Below, piece after piece: positions 11,607 to 37,172 of a DNA stretch of 37,172 bases (position 1 is the first letter of the stretch; every line of letters begins with the position of its first letter). The DNA is from a virus: IMG/VR virus record IMGVR_UViG_3300025890_000057, positions 1-37,172 of that record; one strand, 5' to 3'. Position numbers and translations under genes: made by a program. A model generated the notes under the pieces. That model worked only from the letters and a program-made list of their open reading frames with translations, made no database searches and was not told the DNA's origin.

Positions 11607-12481
11607 TGGATAACGCAATACCAAGAAAATATTATGGTGACGATATCCGTTGGTTCATTGGAGTCGTAGTTAACGCAACGCCTCCTCCTATTCTACAGGG
11701 TAGAGTTAAAGTGCGAATTCACGGTGTACACAATCCTTCGACAGGAGAAATACAAGAAAGTGATTTGCCTTGGGCACAGGTGTTAATCCCTACAACAGAA
11801 GGAGGAGTCTCTGGTATTGGGGCTGTTCCAGGAATACTTCCTGGAGCTTCTGTTTTTGGTTATTTCTTAGACGGAAAATCATCACAACTGCCCGTTATAT
11901 TGGGATCGTTTCCAAGAATAGAATTCCCTAATGCAGTGCAAAAACGAGTAAATTCTGCTAATCAATCAGAAGATGAATTAGAATACGATCAAGAAAGAGA
12001 ACAAAACTTTATTGAATCGTCAGTAATGATTGATGATGAGTTTCAAAAGGGAAATGTTTCTCGAAGAAGAAGCCAAGCTATAAAATTTTTCATAGACAAC
12101 GGGTATCGCCCAATACACGCCGCAGCTTTGGCTGGTATTATTGAAGCGGTTTCGGGTTTCGCTATCTACGAGATTGACTCTAAAGAAAATGAACAAGGGT
12201 TGATAAAGTGGTCACAAAACGAAGGTAATCGGTTTAAAGGTCTAATAGAGTTTTCTAAAAATTATCAGAAAACAAAAAGCTGGAAATCTTATTCAATTCA
12301 GCTTCAATTTATTTTATATGAATTGCGCAATACTCAGAATAGAGCTAATGTCAAACTTCTACAAACAACTTCTATAGAAAAAGCGGTAGAGGCAATTGCT
12401 AAATATTACAGTAAAAACTCTACAAACACAAACGAAGCAGTAAAGTTTGCAGAGAGAGCTTATGATGGGGCGTTAGAATGA
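11606..12481 (+). CDS. 5: gp5 N-terminal half: OB-fold hub with degenerate tail lysozyme domain
   Basis: Residues 1-115 are the gp5 OB fold (YYGDDIRWFIGVVVNATPPP, GRVKVRIHGVHNPSTGEI, LPWAQVLIPTTEGG, LDGKSSQLPVILGSFPR), which sits on gp27 at the head of the spike. Residues about 153-245 look like a phage tail lysozyme domain: FFIDNGYRPIHAAALAGIIE, QGLIKWSQNEGNRFKGLIEF, and a later QLQFILYELRN. In that family the motif before SGF normally ends in the catalytic Glu (ESGF); here residue 182 is Val (AVSGF). The protein stops at 291 residues with no needle, which lies two genes downstream. The GTG start overlaps the previous stop by one base. Confidence 0.8.
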   Translation: MDNAIPRKYYGDDIRWFIGVVVNATPPPILQGRVKVRIHGVHNPSTGEIQESDLPWAQVLIPTTEGGVSGIGAVPGILPGASVFGYFLDGKSSQLPVILGSFPRIEFPNAVQKRVNSANQSEDELEYDQEREQNFIESSVMIDDEFQKGNVSRRRSQAIKFFIDNGYRPIHAAALAGIIEAVSGFAIYEIDSKENEQGLIKWSQNEGNRFKGLIEFSKNYQKTKSWKSYSIQLQFILYELRNTQNRANVKLLQTTSIEKAVEAIAKYYSKNSTNTNEAVKFAERAYDGALE

Positions 12482-14352
12482 CAGCAAGTAAAGAACAGGT
12501 CAAAGATCAAATAACCGGTCTTGCAAATAAAATCAGTTATGATGGCGTTAACGCTCAAGCAAAGACTGCGACGGCACAAAAGAAAAACGCGGTTCAAACT
12601 GCTGTTGGTAATAAAGTCGGTGAGGTCAAAGGTGGGGTGCAGAGTATCAGCGCGAAAGCTGAAGATGTTTCTAATAAACTGAACAGCGCACCAGTTGAAG
12701 GTTTGGTGACAGACGGTGTATCGTCTATCAAAGGTTCAATAGATGATACTCTTTCTGCAGAGACTAATATATTATCTTCTACTTTTGGAACCAAATTAGA
12801 ACTGACTTGGACAGATCCGGACGAAGATGGTAATGTAAGAGTTAGAAGTAGTTCTTTGGTTGCAGACACCAATTCGTCTCTGAGTTCACTTATAACTTCC
12901 ATATCTGGTCTTGGCGCTGGCAAGCCAGACCTTTCAGGGTTTGCTCAAGAAATAGTTACAAACGCTTCACCAGAAGGGCTTGTAAGTTCGCTTAATAATA
13001 TCAAAGGAACAGTTGCAGGGTTTCCTGACTTAGCAACTGTTAATGCGCTTTCACAAAAAGCAAACGACACAGTTTCAGCTATAACAGCAAAAATAAATGC
13101 TGCTACTGAATTTGTTAATGCTCCAAATGTAAACTCAGGAGACTCTGCTGGTAATTTTACCTACGCATTTCCAAATGATTCTGCAGACGTTAACATAACA
13201 AATGTGACCATGCAACAGACTTATGATGGGTTTACTTTAGAAACAGGGCGCGCCGTTACTGACGCTCAGACTTTAGTAGACAAAGCGATTAGCATCGACG
13301 AAAATGCGCTTAAAACAGATTTATCGGGCCTTAAAGATAACATAGTCTCGGGCGCGTCAATTTTCTCTGATTTACAAACAGTCGTGAGCGCAGTGACCGA
13401 TGTAGGCCAAAAAGGATTAGATTATATCGTTTCCGCCCTACAAGCCATTTCGCCTTCTTCTAACGGCTTGATACAAGGATTTGTTACAGACCTCAATCAA
13501 GAAGCACAAAATTTACAAAAAGATTATCCTGAATTGACAGACGAAGAGGCCAAAAAGGTTGTTGAACTTTCTCAAGGAAATAAATCTGATCAAGATAAAG
13601 CGACAGAAATTGTTCAAAATAAAACAAAACAACCACCAAACGCCGTTCGAGCTAGACTGTTAAAAGTCAACACGACAATTGCAGGAACAACTGTTGTTGA
13701 TAATGAAAATTCGGCGTTTACCAATCCGTTTTCTTTTGAAAGAAATGATTGGAACGACGGGCAAGGTAGTCAGAGTTTCTCTTATATAAACACCGTTGAA
13801 GAACTAGAAGCAGAGTTGAGAACCTCTACAAGAGACATTACAGAGGTTGTAGTGCATTGGACAGAAACGTTTACCAATAAAAACATTGGTTCAGAAGAAA
13901 TTAACTCAACTCACATTGGTTTAGGAATAAAGGGCATTGGTTATCATTATGTGATTCGTAGGGATGGTTCTTTGCAAAGGGGTCGACCCCTTTCGAATCA
14001 AGGAGAGCATTCTTCTGTAAACGATCATGACGAGTTTTCAATAGGACTGGTGTTTGTTGGCGGTTTTAATTGTTCTTCTGGAACGCCTAATCCTGAATCG
14101 TTTTTGTCTTCACAATCATTGACCCGCGCGCAGATGACTACTTTCGAACAATTCTGTCGAGCATTCTATAAGAAATATCCTGGAGGTCAAGTCCTTGGCC
14201 ATAATGACATTGACTCAACGGAGCTAGATCCAGGGTTTGATGTTATTGATTACTGCAAAGATGTTTTTGGTAAAGAGTCTATATTTTCAGATCCAACGTC
14301 TCAAGGACCCTTTAAACCGAGCGACTTAGTCAAACAAAAGGTGGTATTATGA
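12478..14352 (+). CDS. Hub-associated protein with C-terminal T7-lysozyme-type amidase
   Basis: The C-terminal part (about residues 445-610) is an N-acetylmuramoyl-L-alanine amidase of the T7 lysozyme/AmpD fold, cutting the amide between MurNAc and the peptide. Visible are EVVVHWTET (H460), GYHYVIRRDGSLQRGRP (Y489, H490), SIGLVFVGGFN, and GHNDIDSTELDPGFD (H575, D584). H460, H575 and D584 fit the zinc ligands of AmpD. The usual catalytic Lys two residues before the last ligand is Glu (E582). The first 400 residues are Ser/Thr/Ala-rich with coiled-coil character and no recognised domain. It overlaps both neighbours by four bases (ATGA), inside the gp5 gene cluster, so it probably supplies the cell-wall-cutting activity of the tail tip. 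Confidence 0.85.
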   Translation: MTASKEQVKDQITGLANKISYDGVNAQAKTATAQKKNAVQTAVGNKVGEVKGGVQSISAKAEDVSNKLNSAPVEGLVTDGVSSIKGSIDDTLSAETNILSSTFGTKLELTWTDPDEDGNVRVRSSSLVADTNSSLSSLITSISGLGAGKPDLSGFAQEIVTNASPEGLVSSLNNIKGTVAGFPDLATVNALSQKANDTVSAITAKINAATEFVNAPNVNSGDSAGNFTYAFPNDSADVNITNVTMQQTYDGFTLETGRAVTDAQTLVDKAISIDENALKTDLSGLKDNIVSGASIFSDLQTVVSAVTDVGQKGLDYIVSALQAISPSSNGLIQGFVTDLNQEAQNLQKDYPELTDEEAKKVVELSQGNKSDQDKATEIVQNKTKQPPNAVRARLLKVNTTIAGTTVVDNENSAFTNPFSFERNDWNDGQGSQSFSYINTVEELEAELRTSTRDITEVVVHWTETFTNKNIGSEEINSTHIGLGIKGIGYHYVIRRDGSLQRGRPLSNQGEHSSVNDHDEFSIGLVFVGGFNCSSGTPNPESFLSSQSLTRAQMTTFEQFCRAFYKKYPGGQVLGHNDIDSTELDPGFDVIDYCKDVFGKESIFSDPTSQGPFKPSDLVKQKVVL

Positions 14353-21358: not shown

Positions 21359-24300
21359 ATGCCAAACACATTTAATTCGAGCACTTTATCTGGAACGTAT
21401 AAAGACGACTGGAATGATAGCGATGGGTATCATCAAATATTATTCAATAGTGGTCGTGCACTACAAGCCAGAGAATTAACTCAACTACAGACAATCATCC
21501 AAGAAGAGATTTCTAGGCACGGTAAAAATGTCTTTAAAGAAGGTTCGCGGGTTTCGGCAGGTGGTATTACTATCGATAATCAAATTCGATATGTAAAAAT
21601 ATCTACTGTTGGTGGCGGGACTTTCGCTGATATTCCTGTCGGTACTCTGTTCACCGGATCCACTAGTGGTTACACTGCTCGCGTTTTAGACGTTAAAGCT
21701 GCTGGTGTGGATGGCTATGCAACTGATACTTTGTATTTACGATATGTAGGAGCAAACACAGTTTCTCCTGCGGGCTCAACGGCTCTGTTTATAAACACAG
21801 AAACATTAACAGGCGGTAACTACACACTCACTGTTGGAAATGATACAGACTCTGTTGGTGTTGGCACCAAGATAACTGTTGCCGAAGGCGACTGGTTTGT
21901 TCTGGGGCACTTTGTTCATTCACCAGAACAGACATTATACCTTTCTCCATACACGCAGACAGCAAACGGCGAGATTGTTTATGAAGTCGTTGAAGACGTT
22001 GTTACCGTTAATGACACAACTTCTCTTTATGATAACACAGGCGGTTCGCCTAATTTGGCCTCTCCAGGCGCAGACCGATACCGTATTCGTTTAACGCTTA
22101 AAGACCAGATTAATGTTACTGTTGGTGCTACTCAGTGCTTTATTTGTAGTGTAGAAAACTCAACAATCACTAAACAAGCCACAACCTTAGAGAGCTACAA
22201 CAAGATAAACGAGTTGCTTGCTCTCAGAACAAACGAAGAGTCTGGCGATTACATTGTTAATCCATTTAGCATACATTTTAGAGATGATGTAATAGGCGAC
22301 TCGAATTTAGATCTCATTGTTTCTCCTGGAACTGCGTACATTAACGGTTACAGGGTTTCTAACAGTCATCCTGTTAGATTATCAGTACCTCGATCGACAA
22401 GAACACAATTGGTCAATAATCAAGCAATTCCTTATACAAATGGTAGCTTTATTATTTCAGACGTAAGTAGAGGCGCGCCATTTGCTTCTACAACATTAGC
22501 TACGGTTGACATTCGCGATACAATTGCTTATGGTGGTTCTACTATTGGTACCTGCCGCGTTAAAGCGATTGACAACACGCCAGACGGTCGGGTTCGGGTA
22601 TATCTCTTTGATGTGCAAATGAACGCAGGTCAAAGTTTTCGTACAGCCAGATCAATCGGCAACAGCGCTACAGACTACTGGGATATAGATCTTGAAACTG
22701 ATGCTGCTGTTATTAAAGAAGCTGGCCGAAACGATATGTTTATTGTCTTGCCAAGACCTCGTCCTCAAAATATCACGGACATTAATATAACAACGCAAAG
22801 ACAATTTACTTCAGCGGCGGCAAGCGGCAACCAAGTAACAATTACTGGTTTAAGCGCTAATCAAAGTTTTGTCGACACTGATCGCTGGATTGTTGCTGGA
22901 GCAGACGAACAATTTAAGACAACCCCAACAATTATTTCTAACACAGGAACTTCTGTTGTTATTGGCGGTTTGACAAACGGTAAAGTCTATCAGGTTTATG
23001 CATATGTTAATGACACATCCGGTGCTGCAAGAACGAAAACTCTTGTCTCGGTAACGAACGCCGGAACATTAACCACTGATCCTGAGGGATTCAAATACTT
23101 TGACATTGGGTATACTGATGTTAAAGAAGTAACTCGTCTACGAACTACAGACTCTGACGGAGTCGATATTTCTTCTAACTTTGTTCTGGATAACGGGCAA
23201 AGAGATAACTACTATGGTCGTGGTCGAGTCATTCTGAAGAATGGAATTGCAGATCCAGGAACTGTCTTTATTCGAGTCAATCACTACTCGCACAGCGCTA
23301 CAGGTAATTTTTATGATGCGACTTCATATCCTGATGAGTATGAAGACATTCCATCACATAGAAAGTCGAATGGTGAAGTTGTTCCTCTGCGTAATGTCTT
23401 AGATTTTCGTCCAGACTTTGATGGTACCACCTTCACTGAGTTTGGTGGTGATCAAGAGATCGAATTACCAAGAAGCGGCGACTTCCTCAGCGCAGACGTA
23501 AGATACTATACACCACGAGCAGATAAGCTATTGGTGACACAAGAGGGCGACTTCAAACTGTTAATGGGTGTTCAGGCTGAGAATCCTCAGTTTAAAGAAA
23601 CCCCAGAAAATTCTCTTGAGTTGTACAAGCTGATTTTAAATGGTTACACAGACGGTCCATTAGACCTGACCGCAACACCAATCGAGCACAAACTTTATAC
23701 AATGAAGGATATCAATAAGCTCGAGCTGCAGCTTAACAGCTTCCAAGAAGAAACACGATTGTCGTTACTTGAGTTGGAAGCAAAATTAGATACAATGTTT
23801 GATTCTGCTGGCATTGAGAGAATCGTTTCTGGTCTTCTGGTAGATGATTTTGACGATCAATCACAAACAGATACGACACACGTTGATCACACTGCATCAC
23901 TGGATCCGGAAAGCCGATCTATCAGAGCAGGATTTGAAGCAAACAATATTCGTTTGATTTACGATTCTGCTGTTTCAAGCGGTATGAAGCCTACTGCTAC
24001 AACCGGCGACCTTGTTACCTTGAATTTCGTTGACGAAGAATGGCAGAAACAAGAGCTCGCTTCAAGAGTTCAAAAGGTTAATCCTGCAGGTTTAATTCGA
24101 AACATTGGTTGTTTAATGTTATCGCCCTCAAGCGATGAGTGGAAAGATCAGAAAGCAAAAACAAACTATGCAGTTCCTGGAACAACTTCTATCGATACGC
24201 AACAAGCGTATCTCTGGAATGAGTGGCAGTGGAACTGGGGCGGAAGAGCTGCAGAAAATTTTGATACCGGTGCTTATTGCGGAAAGGGTCTCTCATCGAC

Positions 24301-26759: not shown

Positions 26760-27002
26760 ATGAGTGTAAAATATATTCCGGTTGCGGGGCATCAAGGGTT
26801 TGTTCGAGATACCTCAACCGGAGCTGTACTAAATATAAATCGTACAGCGATTGAACAAGCTAGACAAAGTAAAAAGAACAGATTAGAACAAAGAAAGAAA
26901 CAGGAAAACTTAGCCGAACGTGTAAACTCTATGGAAGAGGATATTAGTTCAATTAAGTCTCTCTTAGAAGTTATCGCACAAAGGCTGAATAATGTCTCAT
27001 GA
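26760..27002 (+). CDS. Small coiled-coil structural protein, 80 aa
   Basis: Starting at the ATG at 26760, one base after the preceding stop, the protein reads MSVKYIPVAGHQGFVRDTST followed by a basic Lys/Gln/Arg-rich helix and a C-terminal heptad pattern MEEDISSIKSLLEVIAQRL. I associate the combination of VRDTxTGAVLN and a terminal coiled coil with a short protein found next to DUF4815 genes in marine T4-like phages. An upstream in-frame TTG or ATG inside the 1799-residue gene is less likely. It overlaps the next gene by 11 bases. Probably a small trimeric connector or chaperone; the role is not established. Confidence 0.7.
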   Translation: MSVKYIPVAGHQGFVRDTSTGAVLNINRTAIEQARQSKKNRLEQRKKQENLAERVNSMEEDISSIKSLLEVIAQRLNNVS

Positions 27003-30000
27003 CGGATTTACAGATAAAGGTCGTAGGAATTTAAACCTATCAAACCCTCGTATTGATGAAGTACTACCTCAATATTTTACTACTCAATATCCTAAATTCA
27101 TCTCACTTCTCGAAAGATACTATGAGTTTGAAACTGACTCTGCGAGTCCAACAGAACTTATTGGACATCTTTTCGAAAGTCGCGATATAAATCAAACAGA
27201 CCTTTCGTTACTGTCTTACATTGAAGACGAATTGTTACTTGGAAGTAATTATGCAGAAGGATTTCAAGACAAACGCGCTGCTGCAAATTTCTCCAGTCAA
27301 TTATTCAGAGCAAAGGGCACCAAGTATTCAATTGAGTGGTTCTTTCGAGCCTTTTTTGGCGTTGACCCAGAAATATTCTATCCAAAAGAAAACGTTTTTC
27401 TTTTAGCTGGCGTTGATTCAGACACCCTTGATAGTAAGATTGGGACTGGATATGCCAAATATATTACTAACGACAAACTCTATCAAACCTTTGCGCTAGA
27501 AATAAAAACTGAACTTGGTGTCGAACAATGGGAAAACATTTACAAGCTGTTCGCTCACCCTGCAGGAATGTACCTAGGCTCGAGATATGTTGTTAATGCA
27601 GAAGCCGAAGTAGAAGGCCTAGATTCTGACATTGTTAATAATTCTATTACAACAGCACCTTCTCCTGTCTTTAATCTTTCTGCAGACGACACAAGTCCAG
27701 ACGAAGGAGATTTAGTTACATTCACTATTAGTGGTTCTAATATTCCGTCTGAATATTATTACTGGTATGTTGCTCCATCTACGATTAGCGATAGTGATAT
27801 TGTTGCGCCATATCCAACGGTTAATAACAGAGAACCTGTACTTGTTACTGCTAATTCGGGATCTTTTGATCTTGTTATTGGCTTTCAGGATGAGCAAGAA
27901 ACTGACGCAAAAGAATTTTTAGCTATTCTCTCAGACGAACCATTTCCAGGAGCTATTCCTGGAGCAAAAGGATCTTTAGCGGATCAATTAATTTCTATAA
28001 ACGATGTTTCTTACACCGTTAATACTACTGGTGGCGTTTCTCCGACCACGGGACCAGATCAAGACGTAAATGTTCTCGAAGGTGAAACAATTACATTTAC
28101 TCTCGCGCCAAACACACCATCGATCATTCCAAATAAACCAGTATTCTTTACTACAAACCTTCCAAACTTATTTGTCGACAGTAGCCAAATCGATGTCGGT
28201 GATCACGATGTTTTAAGTGGTGGAAAGAGACTGGTCTCGCTGGATGGTTCAGGCGGTTCTACGAATTTAACTATCGCTACAAAGGTTGGCACAGGCGCAA
28301 AAGCGTTTGTTGCACAATTCGAAGATTCTTCTGGTAATCAGATCTTTGGTTATTCTACGTTTGAAGGTATTCTGATTGAAATTCAAGATAATGTTGCTGC
28401 ATCATATACAATCACAGCATCACCAAGTGGTCCTTCCGAGGGAGTTTCTGGTACTCCAATGACCTTTAATGTCACTGGGTCTGGTTTAAACATTGGAGAT
28501 AGCGCAACCTACATTAATATAACACATCTCACCACTGACAACGCAGACTTTACAACTGTACCACCAGGAAACAGTCCAACTTCGAGAGCGCTCGTGACTC
28601 TTGCTGATACAGGTAATCGGAGTGGGTTTGGACAAGCGGTCAGTTTAATAACGGTAAAACAAGATGCAGCTTCTGAAGGTGATCAAACATTTAAAGCAGA
28701 TCTCTATGACGATATCTCTGCAGGTTCTTTATTGACAACAAGCGGTACAATTACCATAACAGATACTAACTTTACACTGACACCTACACCAACAACAGTT
28801 AACGAGGGCGATACCGTTACCTTCGATGTTTCAGGAACAGGAATTACTCAGAGTGGTACTGCATATTGGCAAATGGATTATGGTACTGCAGACTCTGCTG
28901 ATTTTATTAATCATCCATCTTCTTCTGGCGACAGAAGGGCGGTTTCTATAACTTCCGGATCAAGCCCAGAAGGTTCGTTTACAGTTAATGTTAAAGAAGA
29001 TTTTACTACAGATGGCGCGCCCGAAAACTTTGCAACAAGTGTATGGACAGCTCCTACTGGCGGTGTACAATTAGCTGCTTCGGGTAATGTTACAATTAAC
29101 GACACCTCTATTCCTACAGGAGCGGATTATAATATTTCTGCTACCGGAACTACAGAAGGAGGGAATGTAGTTCTCTCCGTGTCTCCAGGAGCTTCCAGTG
29201 GAGACACGGTTGATTGGACAATAGATGGAGTTGGTGTGGGTGATTCTGCCACGTCTCTAGAAAATAGAATGAGTTCATTGACAGGAACATTCGGTGTTGT
29301 AAGTGGAACTGTAAATGTTAATGTTGGTACAACTTTGGATTCAGATGTTTGGCCATATGTAAACAATGGCCGAGTAATCATAGACATCAATGGTGGCGCG
29401 ACGGGTGTTGACTCTGACCGGTTTACAGTTAGCGATGCTGCTGCTTCTTACGAGCTTATTGCTACAAACGATACCGCAGGAGCTTGGGACGAAGGTTCTA
29501 CTACTCAATGGGCAATCAAAGGCAAAAACATAGATAGTGATACGGTTGTCTATGTTGAATTTTCTGGCGGTACAGCAGACGGAAATGATTTCGCTACACC
29601 GAATCCATATCAGAGCAGACAGGCTGTTTCTTTAGTTTCTGCTAATTTCAATCCACTAAATGGTTATAATGGAACTTACTCTGTTGCGATAGAGAATGAC
29701 GCAACAACTGAAGGCAATGAAACATTTAACGCGAGCCTTTGGAATCAGGCTACTTCTGGTATTCAACTGGCCACCGCTGGGGCGTTTACGATTAACGACA
29801 CAAGTACTGCGGCGGGAGTTAGTAGCTACGTGTTCTTTGGTAGAGCACATGACGACTTTAGCACCACGAATAATACGGGTTCGACTGTTACTACATTTAG
29901 GAATACCGGATCTTGGGAAACTGCGGGCGCCGCAGGTGTTGCTGACGATGCTGTTGAGCCTGATTATACTGGCGCATCTTCTCACTTTGACGACGAGTGG

Positions 30001-30273
30001 TTATCAACGGGAGGCAGCGCCTCAGATTATCAAATTAGAGTTACAGGATCATTCGGTACCTATTCTTCACAAGGGTCTGGTAGTTGGGGTTCTTGGCAAA
30101 CACTTAGTAGCAATCGTGCATACGGTATTAATAATAGCAATGGGGGTTCTGGTCTCAAAATTGGCGCCAGCACATTGACTATAACAATAAAACGATATAC
30201 CGGAACTTTAGGGGTAGGTGATACCGTGTTAACAAAACTATATAATGTTAACTGCAGCGTTGGAGGTTTATAA
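26992..30273 (+). CDS. Baseplate-linked protein with tandem Calx-beta/Ig-like domains, 1093 aa
   Basis: Residues 1-215 form a conserved helical anchor (RIDEVLPQYFTTQYPKFISL, LERYYEF, FRAKGTKYSIEWFFRAFFG, NVFLLAGVD). Residues about 225-960 are built of five or six tandem beta domains with repeated signatures EGDTVTFDVSG, ADFxxxP, RRAVSI, EGxExFxxSLW and a closing TINDTS, resembling Calx-beta or Ig-like domains with acidic, possibly Ca2+-binding, loops. The last 130 residues (from SSYVFFGRAHDDF) are Gly/Ser-rich and different. Likely an extended surface fibre that contacts the host or glycans. It follows the small coiled-coil gene with an 11-base overlap. The beta-domain count is by eye. Confidence 0.75.
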   Translation: MSHDGFTDKGRRNLNLSNPRIDEVLPQYFTTQYPKFISLLERYYEFETDSASPTELIGHLFESRDINQTDLSLLSYIEDELLLGSNYAEGFQDKRAAANFSSQLFRAKGTKYSIEWFFRAFFGVDPEIFYPKENVFLLAGVDSDTLDSKIGTGYAKYITNDKLYQTFALEIKTELGVEQWENIYKLFAHPAGMYLGSRYVVNAEAEVEGLDSDIVNNSITTAPSPVFNLSADDTSPDEGDLVTFTISGSNIPSEYYYWYVAPSTISDSDIVAPYPTVNNREPVLVTANSGSFDLVIGFQDEQETDAKEFLAILSDEPFPGAIPGAKGSLADQLISINDVSYTVNTTGGVSPTTGPDQDVNVLEGETITFTLAPNTPSIIPNKPVFFTTNLPNLFVDSSQIDVGDHDVLSGGKRLVSLDGSGGSTNLTIATKVGTGAKAFVAQFEDSSGNQIFGYSTFEGILIEIQDNVAASYTITASPSGPSEGVSGTPMTFNVTGSGLNIGDSATYINITHLTTDNADFTTVPPGNSPTSRALVTLADTGNRSGFGQAVSLITVKQDAASEGDQTFKADLYDDISAGSLLTTSGTITITDTNFTLTPTPTTVNEGDTVTFDVSGTGITQSGTAYWQMDYGTADSADFINHPSSSGDRRAVSITSGSSPEGSFTVNVKEDFTTDGAPENFATSVWTAPTGGVQLAASGNVTINDTSIPTGADYNISATGTTEGGNVVLSVSPGASSGDTVDWTIDGVGVGDSATSLENRMSSLTGTFGVVSGTVNVNVGTTLDSDVWPYVNNGRVIIDINGGATGVDSDRFTVSDAAASYELIATNDTAGAWDEGSTTQWAIKGKNIDSDTVVYVEFSGGTADGNDFATPNPYQSRQAVSLVSANFNPLNGYNGTYSVAIENDATTEGNETFNASLWNQATSGIQLATAGAFTINDTSTAAGVSSYVFFGRAHDDFSTTNNTGSTVTTFRNTGSWETAGAAGVADDAVEPDYTGASSHFDDEWLSTGGSASDYQIRVTGSFGTYSSQGSGSWGSWQTLSSNRAYGINNSNGGSGLKIGASTLTITIKRYTGTLGVGDTVLTKLYNVNCSVGGL

Positions 30274-30845: not shown

Positions 30846-31217
30846 ATGGCACAATATAAAGATTTAACTATAGATCAGGGCACAGACATTACGGTTGAGT
30901 TGCATCTTATCAATACGGATAAAAGTCCAAAAAATTTAACAGGGTATTTTACTTCAGCGAAATTGGCGCCGAATTATAACGCTTCAGATTCTGATAGAAT
31001 TTCTTTTACTACTGAAGTTGCTACTCCTGCGACTGAAGGTATAATGTATTTGTCTCTCACAAACCAACAGACCGACGCATTACAAACTAAAAGAAAATAT
31101 GTCTATGATGTTGAAATATCATACATCAACGATAGCGATGGAATGGGGTCAAGTATTTTCACAATAGAAAGAGTTCTTGAAGGAAACCTGTTCGTAAAGC
31201 CTTCTGTTACAAAATAA
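30846..31217 (+). CDS. BppU-N-like small structural protein, 123 aa
   Basis: A 123-residue beta-sandwich-like protein (LTIDQGTDITVELHLINTDK, PKNLTGYFTSAKLAP, GIMYLSLTNQQTDAL, YVYDVEISY). The pattern of an Asp-Gly strand pair, then NLTGY, resembles the N-terminal domain of BppU-type baseplate upper proteins and similar proteins of marine myoviruses that attach fibres. AAGGATAAG precedes the ATG. It is the last gene before the late promoter at 31232. Assignment by fold pattern only. Confidence 0.55.
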   Translation: MAQYKDLTIDQGTDITVELHLINTDKSPKNLTGYFTSAKLAPNYNASDSDRISFTTEVATPATEGIMYLSLTNQQTDALQTKRKYVYDVEISYINDSDGMGSSIFTIERVLEGNLFVKPSVTK

Positions 31218-31281: not shown

Positions 31282-33240
31282 ATGAAAAAACAAATTGTAA
31301 CAGTTATTGTTGAAGATGCAACAGTAGTCGATGTTGTACAACTTGAGCAGACAATTGTTAGTAGAGTTAAAGTAGGCACTTCTAATGACCCTGTGCAAAT
31401 TCCCGTTGGATGGTCTTCTAGCGAAAATGTAGTAATACAAGATAATCCGTCTATAGATCTACTGTTGAAAACTTCAGTAGACAAAGTTGTTCTTGGAAAT
31501 ACCGTTCTTCTGGGTGATACTCAGAGATATCTTTATAATGATTCTTCTTTTGTCACGAACATAATCGATTCAGATTATGTTAATGCAATACTGGCCGCAA
31601 ACAACGTCGAAGAATCAGATGATTCTGCTATATCAGACGAAGTTCGTTTTGGTAGGTTCAATCCATTAGTTTGGGATTCGGGCGGCGCTCAATATGGTGG
31701 AGCAGATTACAGAATTATAGCTGGGTATCAACCTGATCCCGAATTTCCCGACGAAGTCGTTTCGGTTCGAGACGCAGAATTTCTACCGTATGGCACTGAA
31801 GGTTTTAATAAATTTAGACTTTTGCTCGCCACGTTTACTCCTACTATTGGAACAGGAGCGCCGCAGACGATCAATTTAAATTGGGATGTTTTGGCTAGTG
31901 GATTTTCTATATCTATCTCAAACCCTTTAGATTTTGTAAGTCGGTATGTGGATGAAGTTGTTGATCTAGAAACATCATCGACAGGACAGTTTCCTATGAG
32001 CGTAGGAAATATAATTAAATCCGAGAATTTTAATACTACCGGACCATCTCCAATTCCATTTGGAGGTTCAACTTGGTCACAAGCTTGGACCACTGACGCA
32101 GACTGGTATTTAAATACATTACCAAACAGAGGGGACGAGGCGTATGTTACTGATTTTTACAGTCTCCGCGATGTGGTTAATATTAACGGTTCGGAAGAAA
32201 TTACCGGCGGCGCAACTAATCAAACCAAAGGCGGGAGTGCGTCTTTATGGGTTAGGCTTAAAGATACTACGGGATTTGAATATGGAGGGTTCGTCGAGCC
32301 GTATGATAATGGCGCTCGAATAAATTTCAATTGGCGTAACGCTACTTTAAACGTATCGATCAATAATGTAAGCGGCAGTAATTTTTTAAAAACTTATACT
32401 AGCACAACTTATACTACATCAATAACAAACCTTACTGATATAAACAACGCAGAAGGAGCATTAGCTAGCGGGGACCCAGACGCTCCAGCACATATTCCAA
32501 AGTATCAACCTGCTTTCGTTACCGCTCTTGGCAATTTAGATGCTGGGTATACCGGACCATTTACGTCTACAGAAGATAAAAATAGATGGCCTGACGCTTG
32601 GAGCTATGGCGGAAACCCGACTCAACGAGCACTAGGTAGTGGTACATGGACCCTTTGGCCTCCTGTTCATAAAGACGATCATCCTCAAAGTTCAAGCGGG
32701 CCCAGTGTAAATTACAGACACCTTTATGCTGCAGCTAGGATTACACGTCCTCTTGGAATAGCAGGATCTTTTGATGGTGATTCGGCAGGAGGATTAGACC
32801 CAGCTAAAGGCGCTTCATATATTGAGAGAATTTATAGCACCAACAATTCATTTAACGCTTCATGGGTATATTATTCTTTTTGGCTTTTTACTTCTTCATT
32901 AGCCTCGCCACCTACAAATTCTGATGTTGTTTCAGGATCAGATTATAAGTCGCCCGATGTAACACAACTTGGAAATCAAATAAATAACCTTAGTGGTTTT
33001 ATTAATAACCCAGGAGCTGGACCACAAGCGTTTTGGTTTGGTATTAGAGCTTCTGCGACTCAACCAAATTTTTTCAGAACAGGGTCCAGCGCGTCTTTAT
33101 TATCGGATGTTACACAAACCAATTCTACTGTTTTTTTACAGCCATCGCCAACGCCAGCAAATTATCTCGCAGAAGAATATAGTTTATATGGATTTGTTTT
33201 ACAACCAGGATCTACTTACGTGAGTATAGGAAGACAATAA
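31282..33240 (+). CDS. Tail fibre-type protein A, 652 aa
   Basis: First of two paralogous fibre-like genes. The N-terminal part carries VxxNDPVQIPVGWSSSE and a lone IDSDYVNAIL motif; the middle has GGADYRIIAGYQPDPEFPDE, WPDAWSYGG, GTWTLWPPVHKDDH and TRPLGI, and the C-terminus has QAFWFGIR, FRTGSSASLLSDVT and YGFVLQPGSTYVSIG. These blocks recur in the next gene in the same order. The composition (Gly, Ser, Asn, Trp, aromatic) is that of a receptor-binding or virion surface protein. I know no function for the family. It is preceded by the late promoter at 31232 and an AGGG site. Confidence 0.7.
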   Translation: MKKQIVTVIVEDATVVDVVQLEQTIVSRVKVGTSNDPVQIPVGWSSSENVVIQDNPSIDLLLKTSVDKVVLGNTVLLGDTQRYLYNDSSFVTNIIDSDYVNAILAANNVEESDDSAISDEVRFGRFNPLVWDSGGAQYGGADYRIIAGYQPDPEFPDEVVSVRDAEFLPYGTEGFNKFRLLLATFTPTIGTGAPQTINLNWDVLASGFSISISNPLDFVSRYVDEVVDLETSSTGQFPMSVGNIIKSENFNTTGPSPIPFGGSTWSQAWTTDADWYLNTLPNRGDEAYVTDFYSLRDVVNINGSEEITGGATNQTKGGSASLWVRLKDTTGFEYGGFVEPYDNGARINFNWRNATLNVSINNVSGSNFLKTYTSTTYTTSITNLTDINNAEGALASGDPDAPAHIPKYQPAFVTALGNLDAGYTGPFTSTEDKNRWPDAWSYGGNPTQRALGSGTWTLWPPVHKDDHPQSSSGPSVNYRHLYAAARITRPLGIAGSFDGDSAGGLDPAKGASYIERIYSTNNSFNASWVYYSFWLFTSSLASPPTNSDVVSGSDYKSPDVTQLGNQINNLSGFINNPGAGPQAFWFGIRASATQPNFFRTGSSASLLSDVTQTNSTVFLQPSPTPANYLAEEYSLYGFVLQPGSTYVSIGRQ

Positions 33241-36000
33241 TTGGAAAATGATAAAACAAAAGTAGACAAAATTGTTGTTGGGATCATTAATGACTCCGCG
33301 CAAATTCCTGTTGGGTGGGCGTCAAGCGAAATTGTATCTGTGGGTCAAGGCAATTCAATCAGAGGCGATATTGTAAATGATCCTGTAGAGGTAAAGATTA
33401 AAGCAGGAACGCCAGACCGACAAGGTCGCACAACGATTAAACGATACAATGAAGAAACCTTTATCACAAAAGTGGTCGATTCCGCTTATCTGAAGACCTT
33501 TATAGATTCTGATGTAGTGGAAGATAGCGCTATATCCAATGTAACCTTGTTTGGTAAATTCAGCCCTCTTGTTTGGGATTCGGGTGGTCCTGATTACGGC
33601 GGAGCAGATTACAGAATTATAACTGGCTATCAACCTGATCCAGAAATTCCTGATGACGTCATTAACGTTCGAGACGTTGAATATGTCCCTGATATTGAAG
33701 GCGCCGGAGAAAATTTTAAATTTAGACTACGTCTAGCAAGTTTTAATCCGGTGTTTTTAGGGGGAGAAGAATATAACGTACAAATTCTTAATTGGGACGA
33801 TTCGGCCACTGGTTTTACGGTACTTGTAGAAAACCCAGACGACTTTAAAAGCAGATATATTACTGAAGTTGTTGCAATGTCCGTCGCGCGAATACCTGCT
33901 AGTAACTACCCATCAGCTGAACAGCCTAATTCAGATATCTTTAATATAACCAATGCTTTTTATGGGCGATGGCCTGATATGCCTGCTTGGAAACCGAACG
34001 GTACTTACGGACTGGCTAGCGCTAGCCTTGATTATTTCGGAGAATACTTACCGAATCTAAATCCATTCAACCCCGCCAACCTAGAAGACTCCGCTTATAG
34101 GGCAGATTCAGACACTTCCGAAGAACATAGATTCAGAATTAATCAATTTACAACAACTGGGCCGCGCCTTGATTCCGCAAATGGTTCTCCAGTTACTCCT
34201 GCAGGAGGAGTAGACTGGGCCCAGACGTTCAATTTCACTAATACTGCTTTTGTTCGTACTGATGAAAATGGTGCAGAGGCTACTTATAATCAGGTCGGAG
34301 ATGAATACGACGATTCTGCTAACACCAATGGTTTCTTGTATACAGACGGACAATACGGATATTGGGGAGGCCCAATACTGTATGAAGCGAGTTATGATAC
34401 ACAGCAGCTTACTTCCCGAACGATGGCGAAAAGGATACGCACAACCTATCCACCGCCCCCTTTTAATATAAATAGTACGAATGGCCTTTTTAGTTCTTAT
34501 TTTAATGGCCAATATGATAAAACGGACCAAGGGTCGTTCAACTTTCCAAACAAAGTATATAATTTTAATTATTCACGTCCTTTCAAACTAGTTTTTAAAG
34601 ATAACACAGGAGCTGTATTTTCAGCGGGGCCTTTTATGTTTGCGTGGAAATGCGCTCATCTTTGGAATACTATTACCCCATGTCTCGGAAAAACTTTTCT
34701 GCAAACATACGAATCGACAACCTATGAAGTTGGAGTTGCCCACCTAACTAATCAAAACCTTTTTCAAGGAGACGCGCATTCTCCACATATACAGATTCGA
34801 GATAGCGCCAATGATTTTTATGCGGGTAGACCGTTTGATGGTGCTGGTAATAATCCACAACCAGTAACACCAGGACAAATTACTTGTGCTATAGGTGAAT
34901 ACTCGGGTTATTTGTATCAAGACAGCACTAGTGCGTTTTCTGGGATCACCGGCAACCCTGTTAAGCGTTATCTCTTCGACCCCAACGATATTGACTCAAG
35001 TTGGACCCAGATCAACCCTTATGATAATATACAAAACGAGCGGGCATACTATTCAAAAGAACAGTGGCTACCTGGATTTGAGCGCTGGCCTGATGCGTTG
35101 GCGTGTGCTGGCACTTTATCTAATACTCACAACTTGGGAACAGGAACTTGGACCTTTTCTTCGCCTTGTCATCATACCGATAGAGGCCCAGTGGACGCTA
35201 ACTACAATTACTATAACTCGGGGAGCGATCCCCTTTATGGCCCCAAATTACAACGAGAGCTTCATCACTGGGGATTGATAACAAGGCCATCAGGAATAGA
35301 TCCTTCTAGTTACACAATTGCAGGAGAGCCTCCTGCGCCGCCTGGAGGACCGCTACCTCCGGAAGCGCCGAACTGGGTATCAGGTGTACCACCAATTGGT
35401 TACACAAGATCGCGGGGCGAACTTTCGACCCACTGGCAAACTTATATCAGGCCAGCGATGGAAGCAGCAGGCACTTATGAATGGGATCCAGAAGTGAATG
35501 GCTTTGATTTTCTTGGGGCCAGCTATAAGAACCGCATGCGGTCTTGGTATGATTTAAGTAAATTGTATACTGAATTTCTCTATCCTTCATTTTGGTTGTT
35601 CGGACCAGGAGATTTGACGACTCCTACTAACGCGGATATTGTCGTGGGTGATGAATATAGACCAGAAGTAACTTCTCTCGCTAATCAGACAAGGGTTTTT
35701 TCAGGATACGTTAATAATATTTCAGCAGCCCCCCAAGCGTTTTGGTTCGGCATTAGAGAGCACAGTGACAATTATTCGTTCGCTGCAGGCCCAGCAACTA
35801 ACTATCATACTGCAGTGCCTCAACCAACTTCGTTTAGGACAGGTTCTAGCCCAGCGTTACTTTCTGATGTTACGACAGTAACTCGTGTGGTTAAATTAGG
35901 AGCTATTCCAAACCCAAATATTCTTTATAAGGCAGAACCATTTACTTTGTATGGATTTGTTTTACAACCAGGAACCACTTACGTGAGCATAGGACCTTAA
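33241..36000 (+). CDS. Tail fibre-type protein B, 919 aa, paralogue of A
   Basis: Shares with the preceding gene the N-terminal NDSAQIPVGWASSE, the block GGADYRIITGYQPDPEIPDD, WPDALACAG with GTWTFSSPCHHTD, TRPSGI, and the C-terminal QAFWFGIRE, FRTGSSPALLSDVTT and YGFVLQPGTTYVSIG. It is 267 residues longer, with unique insertions around residues 215-440 and 650-800 that include Pro-rich stretches and two regions rich in Tyr and Asp. The start appears to be TTG directly after the previous stop, with GGAAG upstream; no ATG or GTG sits nearby in frame. Tandem duplication followed by divergence is the simplest explanation. A surface fibre is likely. Confidence 0.7.
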   Translation: MENDKTKVDKIVVGIINDSAQIPVGWASSEIVSVGQGNSIRGDIVNDPVEVKIKAGTPDRQGRTTIKRYNEETFITKVVDSAYLKTFIDSDVVEDSAISNVTLFGKFSPLVWDSGGPDYGGADYRIITGYQPDPEIPDDVINVRDVEYVPDIEGAGENFKFRLRLASFNPVFLGGEEYNVQILNWDDSATGFTVLVENPDDFKSRYITEVVAMSVARIPASNYPSAEQPNSDIFNITNAFYGRWPDMPAWKPNGTYGLASASLDYFGEYLPNLNPFNPANLEDSAYRADSDTSEEHRFRINQFTTTGPRLDSANGSPVTPAGGVDWAQTFNFTNTAFVRTDENGAEATYNQVGDEYDDSANTNGFLYTDGQYGYWGGPILYEASYDTQQLTSRTMAKRIRTTYPPPPFNINSTNGLFSSYFNGQYDKTDQGSFNFPNKVYNFNYSRPFKLVFKDNTGAVFSAGPFMFAWKCAHLWNTITPCLGKTFLQTYESTTYEVGVAHLTNQNLFQGDAHSPHIQIRDSANDFYAGRPFDGAGNNPQPVTPGQITCAIGEYSGYLYQDSTSAFSGITGNPVKRYLFDPNDIDSSWTQINPYDNIQNERAYYSKEQWLPGFERWPDALACAGTLSNTHNLGTGTWTFSSPCHHTDRGPVDANYNYYNSGSDPLYGPKLQRELHHWGLITRPSGIDPSSYTIAGEPPAPPGGPLPPEAPNWVSGVPPIGYTRSRGELSTHWQTYIRPAMEAAGTYEWDPEVNGFDFLGASYKNRMRSWYDLSKLYTEFLYPSFWLFGPGDLTTPTNADIVVGDEYRPEVTSLANQTRVFSGYVNNISAAPQAFWFGIREHSDNYSFAAGPATNYHTAVPQPTSFRTGSSPALLSDVTTVTRVVKLGAIPNPNILYKAEPFTLYGFVLQPGTTYVSIGP

Positions 36001-36003
36001 AAT

Positions 36004-37172
36004 ATGGCTGATTCAGATTTTTATGGATTAACACGTAATACATGGCCTGGAACATGGAGTCCAAGCACAGAAGCACCCATTGTTCTCGATAAAGAGACAC
36101 GAGGTGGGTTACGGTCAATCATTGGAAGTAACGGAGACCGTCTTGAAGATATAACTGGCCAGAGATTAGTCTCTGGTATGTTTGTATTTGTCGAGAAAGA
36201 TTATTCTATTGACAGTGTTGGCGGTAGTATATGGACGTTAGATTCTGTTCCAACTACATTTCAGTCAGGGTACTATCAGTACAAAAACGATTCAGATAGA
36301 AACGAGATAACAGGGTCTCTTCAAAACGAAAGGCAATTCTGGTCTACAATAAATTTAGAATTTGATTCTTCTGATGTATTGGCATTAATTGACTCAGACT
36401 ATATCAAAGGTTTCGTCGATTCAGATTACATTAAGGGTTTTATTGACTCTGATTACATAAAAGGTTTTGTCGATTCAGATTACATTAAGGGTTTTATTGA
36501 CTCAGACTATATCAAGGGTTTCGTCGATTCTGATTACATCAAAGGGTTTATTGACTCAGACTATATCAAAGGTTTCGTCGATTCTGATTACATCAAAGGG
36601 TTTATTGATTCCGATTATCTTAAAGGATTCATAGACTCAGATTATATAAAGGGGTTTGTCGATTCTGATTACATAAAAGGGTTTGTTGACTCCGATTACG
36701 TTAATGCATTTACTGCAGTTTTTGTAGATTCAGATTATATTCAGGCTCGACAAATCTTCGGGCTTGATTCGGCTTTAACGATTGACCTTATCGATTCTGA
36801 TTACATCCAAGCTCGACAAATCCTCGGCGGAGGCAGCGGCGGCGGAATTGATTCAGCTTTAACAATTCAATTAATCGATTCTGATTACATCCAAGCTCGA
36901 CAAATCCTTGGTGGTGGTAGCGGTGGAGGTATTGATTCAGCGTTAACAATACAACTCATCGACTCAGATTATATCAACGCTCGAGTAGATGCTGCTAGTA
37001 TTCCTGATGTTTTGGATTCTTCGGAAATCATAAATCTTATAGGTTTAACTGTTGACTCGGATTACATCAACGCTAGAGTAGATGCAGTAGCTGGTGGAGG
37101 CATTGATTCAGCTTTAACAATTCAATTAATCGATTCTGATTACATCCAAGCTCGACAAATCCTTGGTGGCGG
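36004..37172 (+). CDS. Tail fibre gene with DSDYIKGF tandem repeats (3' end outside window)
   Basis: The frame opens at the ATG at 36004 (MADSDFYGLTRNTWPGTWSP) and stays open to the window end, 389 codons, so the gene is partial. Residues 1-127 are an N-terminal domain that may attach to the virion. Next are twelve consecutive nine-residue repeats of the form I/V-DSDYIKGF, then a second class of repeat with DSDYIQARQ joined by GGGSGGGIDSALTIQL linkers. Repeats with DSDYI are known from fibre-like proteins of marine T4-like phages. The regular acidic-aromatic repeat suggests a long beta-structured shaft. The tip is outside the window. Confidence 0.8.
   Translation, partial: MADSDFYGLTRNTWPGTWSPSTEAPIVLDKETRGGLRSIIGSNGDRLEDITGQRLVSGMFVFVEKDYSIDSVGGSIWTLDSVPTTFQSGYYQYKNDSDRNEITGSLQNERQFWSTINLEFDSSDVLALIDSDYIKGFVDSDYIKGFIDSDYIKGFVDSDYIKGFIDSDYIKGFVDSDYIKGFIDSDYIKGFVDSDYIKGFIDSDYLKGFIDSDYIKGFVDSDYIKGFVDSDYVNAFTAVFVDSDYIQARQIFGLDSALTIDLIDSDYIQARQILGGGSGGGIDSALTIQLIDSDYIQARQILGGGSGGGIDSALTIQLIDSDYINARVDAASIPDVLDSSEIINLIGLTVDSDYINARVDAVAGGGIDSALTIQLIDSDYIQARQILGG
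36388..36711 (+). repeat. Twelve 27-bp in-frame tandem repeats coding I/V-DSDYIKGF
   Basis: Units are exactly 27 bases with no gaps. Odd and even units mostly alternate between an ATT-GAC form and a GTC-GAT form, so the array also reads as 54-bp repeats. Units 1 and 7, units 2 and 4, and units 6 and 8 are identical. The last unit diverges (VDSDYVNAF). Confidence 0.95.
36847..36914 (+). repeat. 68-bp direct repeat, copy 1
   Basis: This stretch, coding IDSALTIQLIDSDYIQARQI and the first Gly of the linker, is identical over 68 bases to 37102-37169. The region between them contains further imperfect copies. Confidence 0.85.
37102..37169 (+). repeat. 68-bp direct repeat, copy 2
   Basis: Second exact copy of the 36847-36914 repeat, in the same reading frame and continuing to the window edge. 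The offset of 255 bases is a multiple of three, so recombination between copies would keep the frame. Confidence 0.85.

Follow-up and report, generated by a model that had tools for sequence, protein, structure and literature searches.

The locus and its genes

At 37,172 bases, the window, i.e., the whole stretch of DNA analyzed here, comprises a virus record of IMG/VR type, a metagenomic contig which is likely a fragment. At its 3' end lies a tail-fibre ORF carrying a tandem array of 27-bp units (Table 1). This ORF leaves the contig before its C-terminus, and any receptor-binding tip or chaperone domain at that end would lie outside the window. The genes upstream form a tail/baseplate structural cluster including baseplate wedge, fibre-assembly, gp32-like and other T4-like genes. 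The two genes directly preceding the fibre gene are paralogues with 45% identity over both ends, the longer one having a large extra middle part; in contig L011, a homologue of the shorter one is located immediately upstream of the fibre gene. Phage C48C1, phages of Pelagibacter and others provide the closest matches (~30% identity) to the large gene at 21359. Further genes of the window include one for a ThyX-type thymidylate synthase, with which the contig begins (35-688), and a UDP-glucose/GDP-mannose dehydrogenase-like gene (1767-2564). A structural protein encoded among the baseplate genes (12478-14352) contains an Amidase_2 domain (N-acetylmuramoyl-L-alanine amidase). The product of 26992-30273 has a baseplate-wedge-like N-terminus, after which comes a long region that includes a match to an Ig-like domain.

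Table 1. Features of the fibre locus in the window.
Feature	Position	Strand	Evidence or remark
L-shaped tail-fibre assembly-like gene	30846..31217	+	phrog_3304, E 3e-13; phrog_1084, E 2.5e-18
Upstream structural gene, 652 aa, one DSDYV motif	31282..33240	+	Paralogue of the next gene
Second paralogue, 919 aa, adjoining the fibre gene on its 5' side	33241..36000	+	
Tail-fibre ORF, 389+ aa, 3' end cut by the contig end	36004..37172	+	Homologues are tail fibres
N-terminal WPGTW domain, ~119 aa, presumed attachment domain	36004..36360	+	29 homologous loci
Degenerate unit 0, FDSSDVLAL	36361..36387	+	In phase with the array, directly before it
Shaft array, twelve 27-bp units, (I/V)DSDYIKGF	36388..36711	+	TRF, unit listing, codon simulation
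Spacer TAVF and one more motif unit, VDSDYIQAR, out of 27-bp phase	36712..36763	+	
Second, looser array, period 84 bp (DSALTIQLIDSDYIQARQILGGGSGGG)	36764..36984	+	TRF score 295, 2.6 copies
Exact 68-bp copy of 36847-36914 at the contig end	37102..37169	+	

Identity of the fibre gene

Homologues of the WPGTW domain are present at 29 viral loci (38-52% identity), which were obtained by a two-row profile search of viral contigs, and different shafts follow the domain at these loci. In L043, L044 and L059, the domain is followed by a collagen-like shaft matching tail-fibre PHROGs. DS-nonads follow it in L038, L050 and L064-L066, and in L050 and L065 these are accompanied by a tail-fibre PHROG domain. 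Different shafts thus follow a single type of N-terminal domain, and the nonad array occupies the place of a shaft. The initial annotation had spoken of a fibre, and this assignment is upheld by the WPGTW homologues running into tail-fibre PHROG domains and by the T4-like structural cluster. On the grounds of sequence homology and gene context, assignment of the gene as a putative tail fibre of an uncultured T4-like myovirus is sound.

Direct searches were less productive. For the fibre protein itself, neither PHROG nor Pfam gave a strong match, a PDB sequence search yielded chance-like matches only, and tblastn of the protein and its pieces against annotated phage records gave no match. When the N-terminal peptide alone and the upstream gene were used as queries in viral contigs, no relatives were found, and the collections searched contained no close relative of the window phage.

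Organization of the repeat array

The array consists, as initially annotated, of twelve gapless in-frame 27-bp units, with starts at 36388 + 27n (n = 0..11). Eleven of the twelve units encode (I/V)DSDY(I/L)KGF; unit twelve encodes VDSDYVNAF. Counterparts of the degenerate unit 0 are located at the same place in L038 (DSSEIIQLV) and L050 (DSATATALI). The identity of several units at the DNA level was likewise confirmed (1 = 7, 2 = 4, 6 = 8), as was the one-base difference between units 5-6 and units 7-8. A 54-bp higher-order period had also been proposed: TRF scores the array at 368 for period 54 and at 240 for period 27, and the lag-2 permutation test of the 54-bp period gives p = 0.04 with the I/V codon left out. 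This period extends across units 1-8 but fades beyond unit 8.

Within the array, exact repeats are at most 38 bp long. On the 3' side, the motif continues with a looser 84-base period and glycine-rich spacers, and the exact 68-bp repeat at the contig end is a likely cause of the assembly break. No inverted repeats were found within the array, and as DNA the array folds worse than shuffled sequences, suggesting that selection acts on the protein; a role of the array as a DNA or RNA structure was rejected on this basis.

Unit number in homologues and relatives

At the place of the array, L038 and L065 contain two units and L050 contains three, compared with 13 in the window (twelve plus one degenerate). 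At another place, the L038 gene also contains four 27-base units that are perfectly identical to each other (INSSYVTGI) and represent a separate expansion of a different motif-family member. A survey for three DSxxY(I/V)-like units at 27-base spacing covered viral contigs and 84,980 bacterial and archaeal genomes. The pattern was present in 49 viral contigs versus 2 contigs from the bacterial and archaeal genomes, and the DSDY-type motif family is thus almost confined to viral contigs. Bacterial matches L116 and L117 were set aside because of unrelated-looking peptides, and viral matches L067, L075 and L113 because of different peptides.

The initial annotation suggested that copy number could change without breaking the frame. 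This is seen in a related fibre present in six contigs, where the units number two (L130, L131), three (L129, L133) or four (L134, L132): the series proceeds in exact 27-base steps of one unit, with downstream flanks 93-97% identical, and is real copy-number variation between relatives. It does not extend to a giant fibre of ~3,000 aa or more, which has exactly 18 units in all seven contigs (L071, L081, L096, L079, L069, L078 and L089). A fixed copy number is what the initial annotation had named as evidence against variable length. These contigs were not selected by array length, as a search with the flanks only recovered them again. For many units of the giant fibre, the best match in a homologue is at a different position in the array, indicating that sequence has been exchanged while the count stays at 18. 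Nine further contig sets also hold their unit count; several of them comprise nearly identical contigs and carry little weight. In relatives, therefore, the motif family gains and loses whole 27-bp units in frame and exchanges units within arrays.

Several minor observations may be added. YadA-head-like repeats are present in the giant fibres of L002-L004, alternative designations of contigs L079, L089 and L069. A 45-bp unit (LDSAGVLGIINANPT) is present in one more copy in L019 than in L014, the genes being otherwise similar. Between L103 and L111, which have equal unit counts, the array is 88% identical and both flanks are 99% identical, i.e., the array changes faster than its surroundings. 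Unit number in multiples of three was considered as a structural rule and dropped, as counts of 4, 5, 7 and 10 occur.

Age of the array

Divergence among the units was compared with a codon simulation in which the peptide was held and codons were drawn independently according to the codon usage of the structural genes (20,000 simulations). Mean between-unit identity is 0.768, versus 0.755 expected from codon usage (p = 0.19). Because mean unit identity equals the expectation for independent synonymous codons, the array is mostly old. Codon differences summed over unit pairs comprise 244 synonymous versus 40 non-synonymous changes: the units vary mainly at synonymous sites and the array peptide is under purifying selection. 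Against this background, three identical unit pairs are observed versus 0.013 expected, a number reached in none of the 20,000 simulations, and seven pairs have at most one difference versus 0.17 expected. This excess of identical and near-identical pairs indicates some recent copying or conversion. Signs of recent expansion, noted initially, can thus be retained for a few recent local copyings, represented by the three identical pairs, but not for the array at large, most units of which are at the divergence limit set by codon usage. What emerges is an old array, under selection for the peptide it encodes, in which local copying has occurred recently in places but no wholesale expansion.

Formation of the array

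These data are best explained by a nonad shaft in a T4-like tail fibre that grew from a few units long ago and later underwent local copying, which we consider probable. Nine-residue units arranged head to tail right after the N-terminal attachment domain would form a segment of the fibre shaft. An ancestral array of two or three units, as in the homologues at the same place, would have grown in the window lineage, a direction suggested by a few distant homologues. Most synonymous sites would have had time to randomize since this growth, and later local duplication or conversion would have produced the identical unit pairs. These changes would likely have proceeded by recombination or slippage between units. 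The number of units would set the length of this fibre section, and some fibres might tolerate a change in unit number while others hold the number fixed. The array is real and is probably a fibre-shaft module, of a kind that evolves by gain, loss and exchange of whole units and is length-constrained in some lineages. Judging from relatives, variable fibre length is plausible in the window phage and might be a function of the array.

Alternatively, the array might be a contingency locus, i.e., a fast length switch in which copy number within a population varies fibre reach or host range. The series of two, three and four copies in near-identical relatives of another fibre would fit such a switch, as would the identical units in the window and L038, which offer substrates for it. 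In addition, changes in fibre repeats accompany host change in Guarani virophage, ORF8 of which contains collagen-like repeat units of 27 nucleotides and had an 81-nucleotide deletion after passage on a new host (PMC7242381); no host effect is known for the window array. However, frequent expansion and contraction would prevent the divergence to the codon-usage limit seen in most units, the array has no exact repeat longer than 38 bp, and the giant-fibre arrays are fixed at 18, which together make a fast switch decidedly unlikely. Similar evidence bears on whether the unit number was set by a short-read assembler and the true count is other than twelve. The window is a metagenomic virus contig and stops at an exact 68-bp repeat, but a 38-bp repeat is short relative to assembly reads of at least 100 bp and seven separate giant-fibre contigs agree on 18 units; an artefact of this kind is highly improbable. 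Old growth from a few units followed by local copying remains the preferred explanation.

Fold of the nonads

In alpha/beta coiled coils such as Tcar0761 and OMP100, tandem nonads follow a published capping rule, with D/N/T/S at beta3, K/R at e and D/E/Q at g (PMC4786415). The window array shares the nine-residue period and the tandem nonads, together with hydrophobic beta1, small hydrophobic beta2, D at beta3 and hydrophobic a. Over 182 distinct units, the residues are I/V at beta1, A/I/V at beta2, D at beta3 and I/V at a, and the hydrophobic fractions at beta1, beta2 and a are 0.84, 0.95 and 0.97; this fits the published beta-layer rules. Among the capping positions of these units, D at beta3 (0.92) fits the rule, whereas S at e (0.91) and Y at g (0.83) depart from it. 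On this sequence comparison, three chains might form an alpha/beta coiled coil from the nonads, to which we give slightly less than an even chance.

The nonads could instead form a monomeric beta-solenoid rather than a trimeric coiled coil. One single-chain AF2 model has continuous beta structure over residues 126-233 with pLDDT of about 85, but a second single-chain run including array relatives gave pLDDT 32, and Foldseek yielded no match at E <= 0.001. For repeat sequences, AF2 reportedly yields solenoids that are confident but unrealistic (PMC11795689), and for this reason neither run was counted. The AF2 solenoid was rejected as a probable artefact, and a solenoid fold of the nonads is unlikely. 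As for the trimeric packing, a more specific proposal is that the DSDY nonads represent an undescribed alpha/beta coiled-coil shaft of uncultured T4-like phages in which unit number serves as a length ruler, being exactly 18 in the giant fibre in spite of unit exchange and variable in other fibres; in this full form the proposal is speculative and we hold it as rather doubtful.

Comparison with known fibre repeats

Collagen-like repeats separate the domains of Streptococcus thermophilus phage antireceptors (PMC5601072). The window array is likewise in-frame, fibrous and located in an attachment protein, and WPGTW-domain homologues of the window carry collagen-like shafts. The unit differs, in that collagen-like repeats consist of Gly-X-Y whereas (I/V)DSDYIKGF in the window is without Gly-X-Y triplets. 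The window array is thus of the same kind as collagen-like fibre repeats, with a different unit. An earlier description of a DSDY-type repeat was not found in the open-access literature searched.

Related phage fibres provide a natural series in which a nine-residue module varies in number (2, 3, 4, 13) or is fixed (18), and this series would allow the relation of fibre length to adsorption to be tested directly. Tcar0761 holds 14 tandem nonads (PMC4786415), and if the predicted fold is true, a long natural nonad shaft would be added to a fold with few known examples. A long repetitive fibre is also encoded by CDS0001 of Phage C48C1 (Kyanoviridae), whose position within the structural cluster is comparable, with an L-shaped tail-fibre assembly gene a few genes before it. 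Having neither DSDY nonads nor the WPGTW domain, this protein contains repeats like those of an ordinary coiled coil (AEVARATAAE...).
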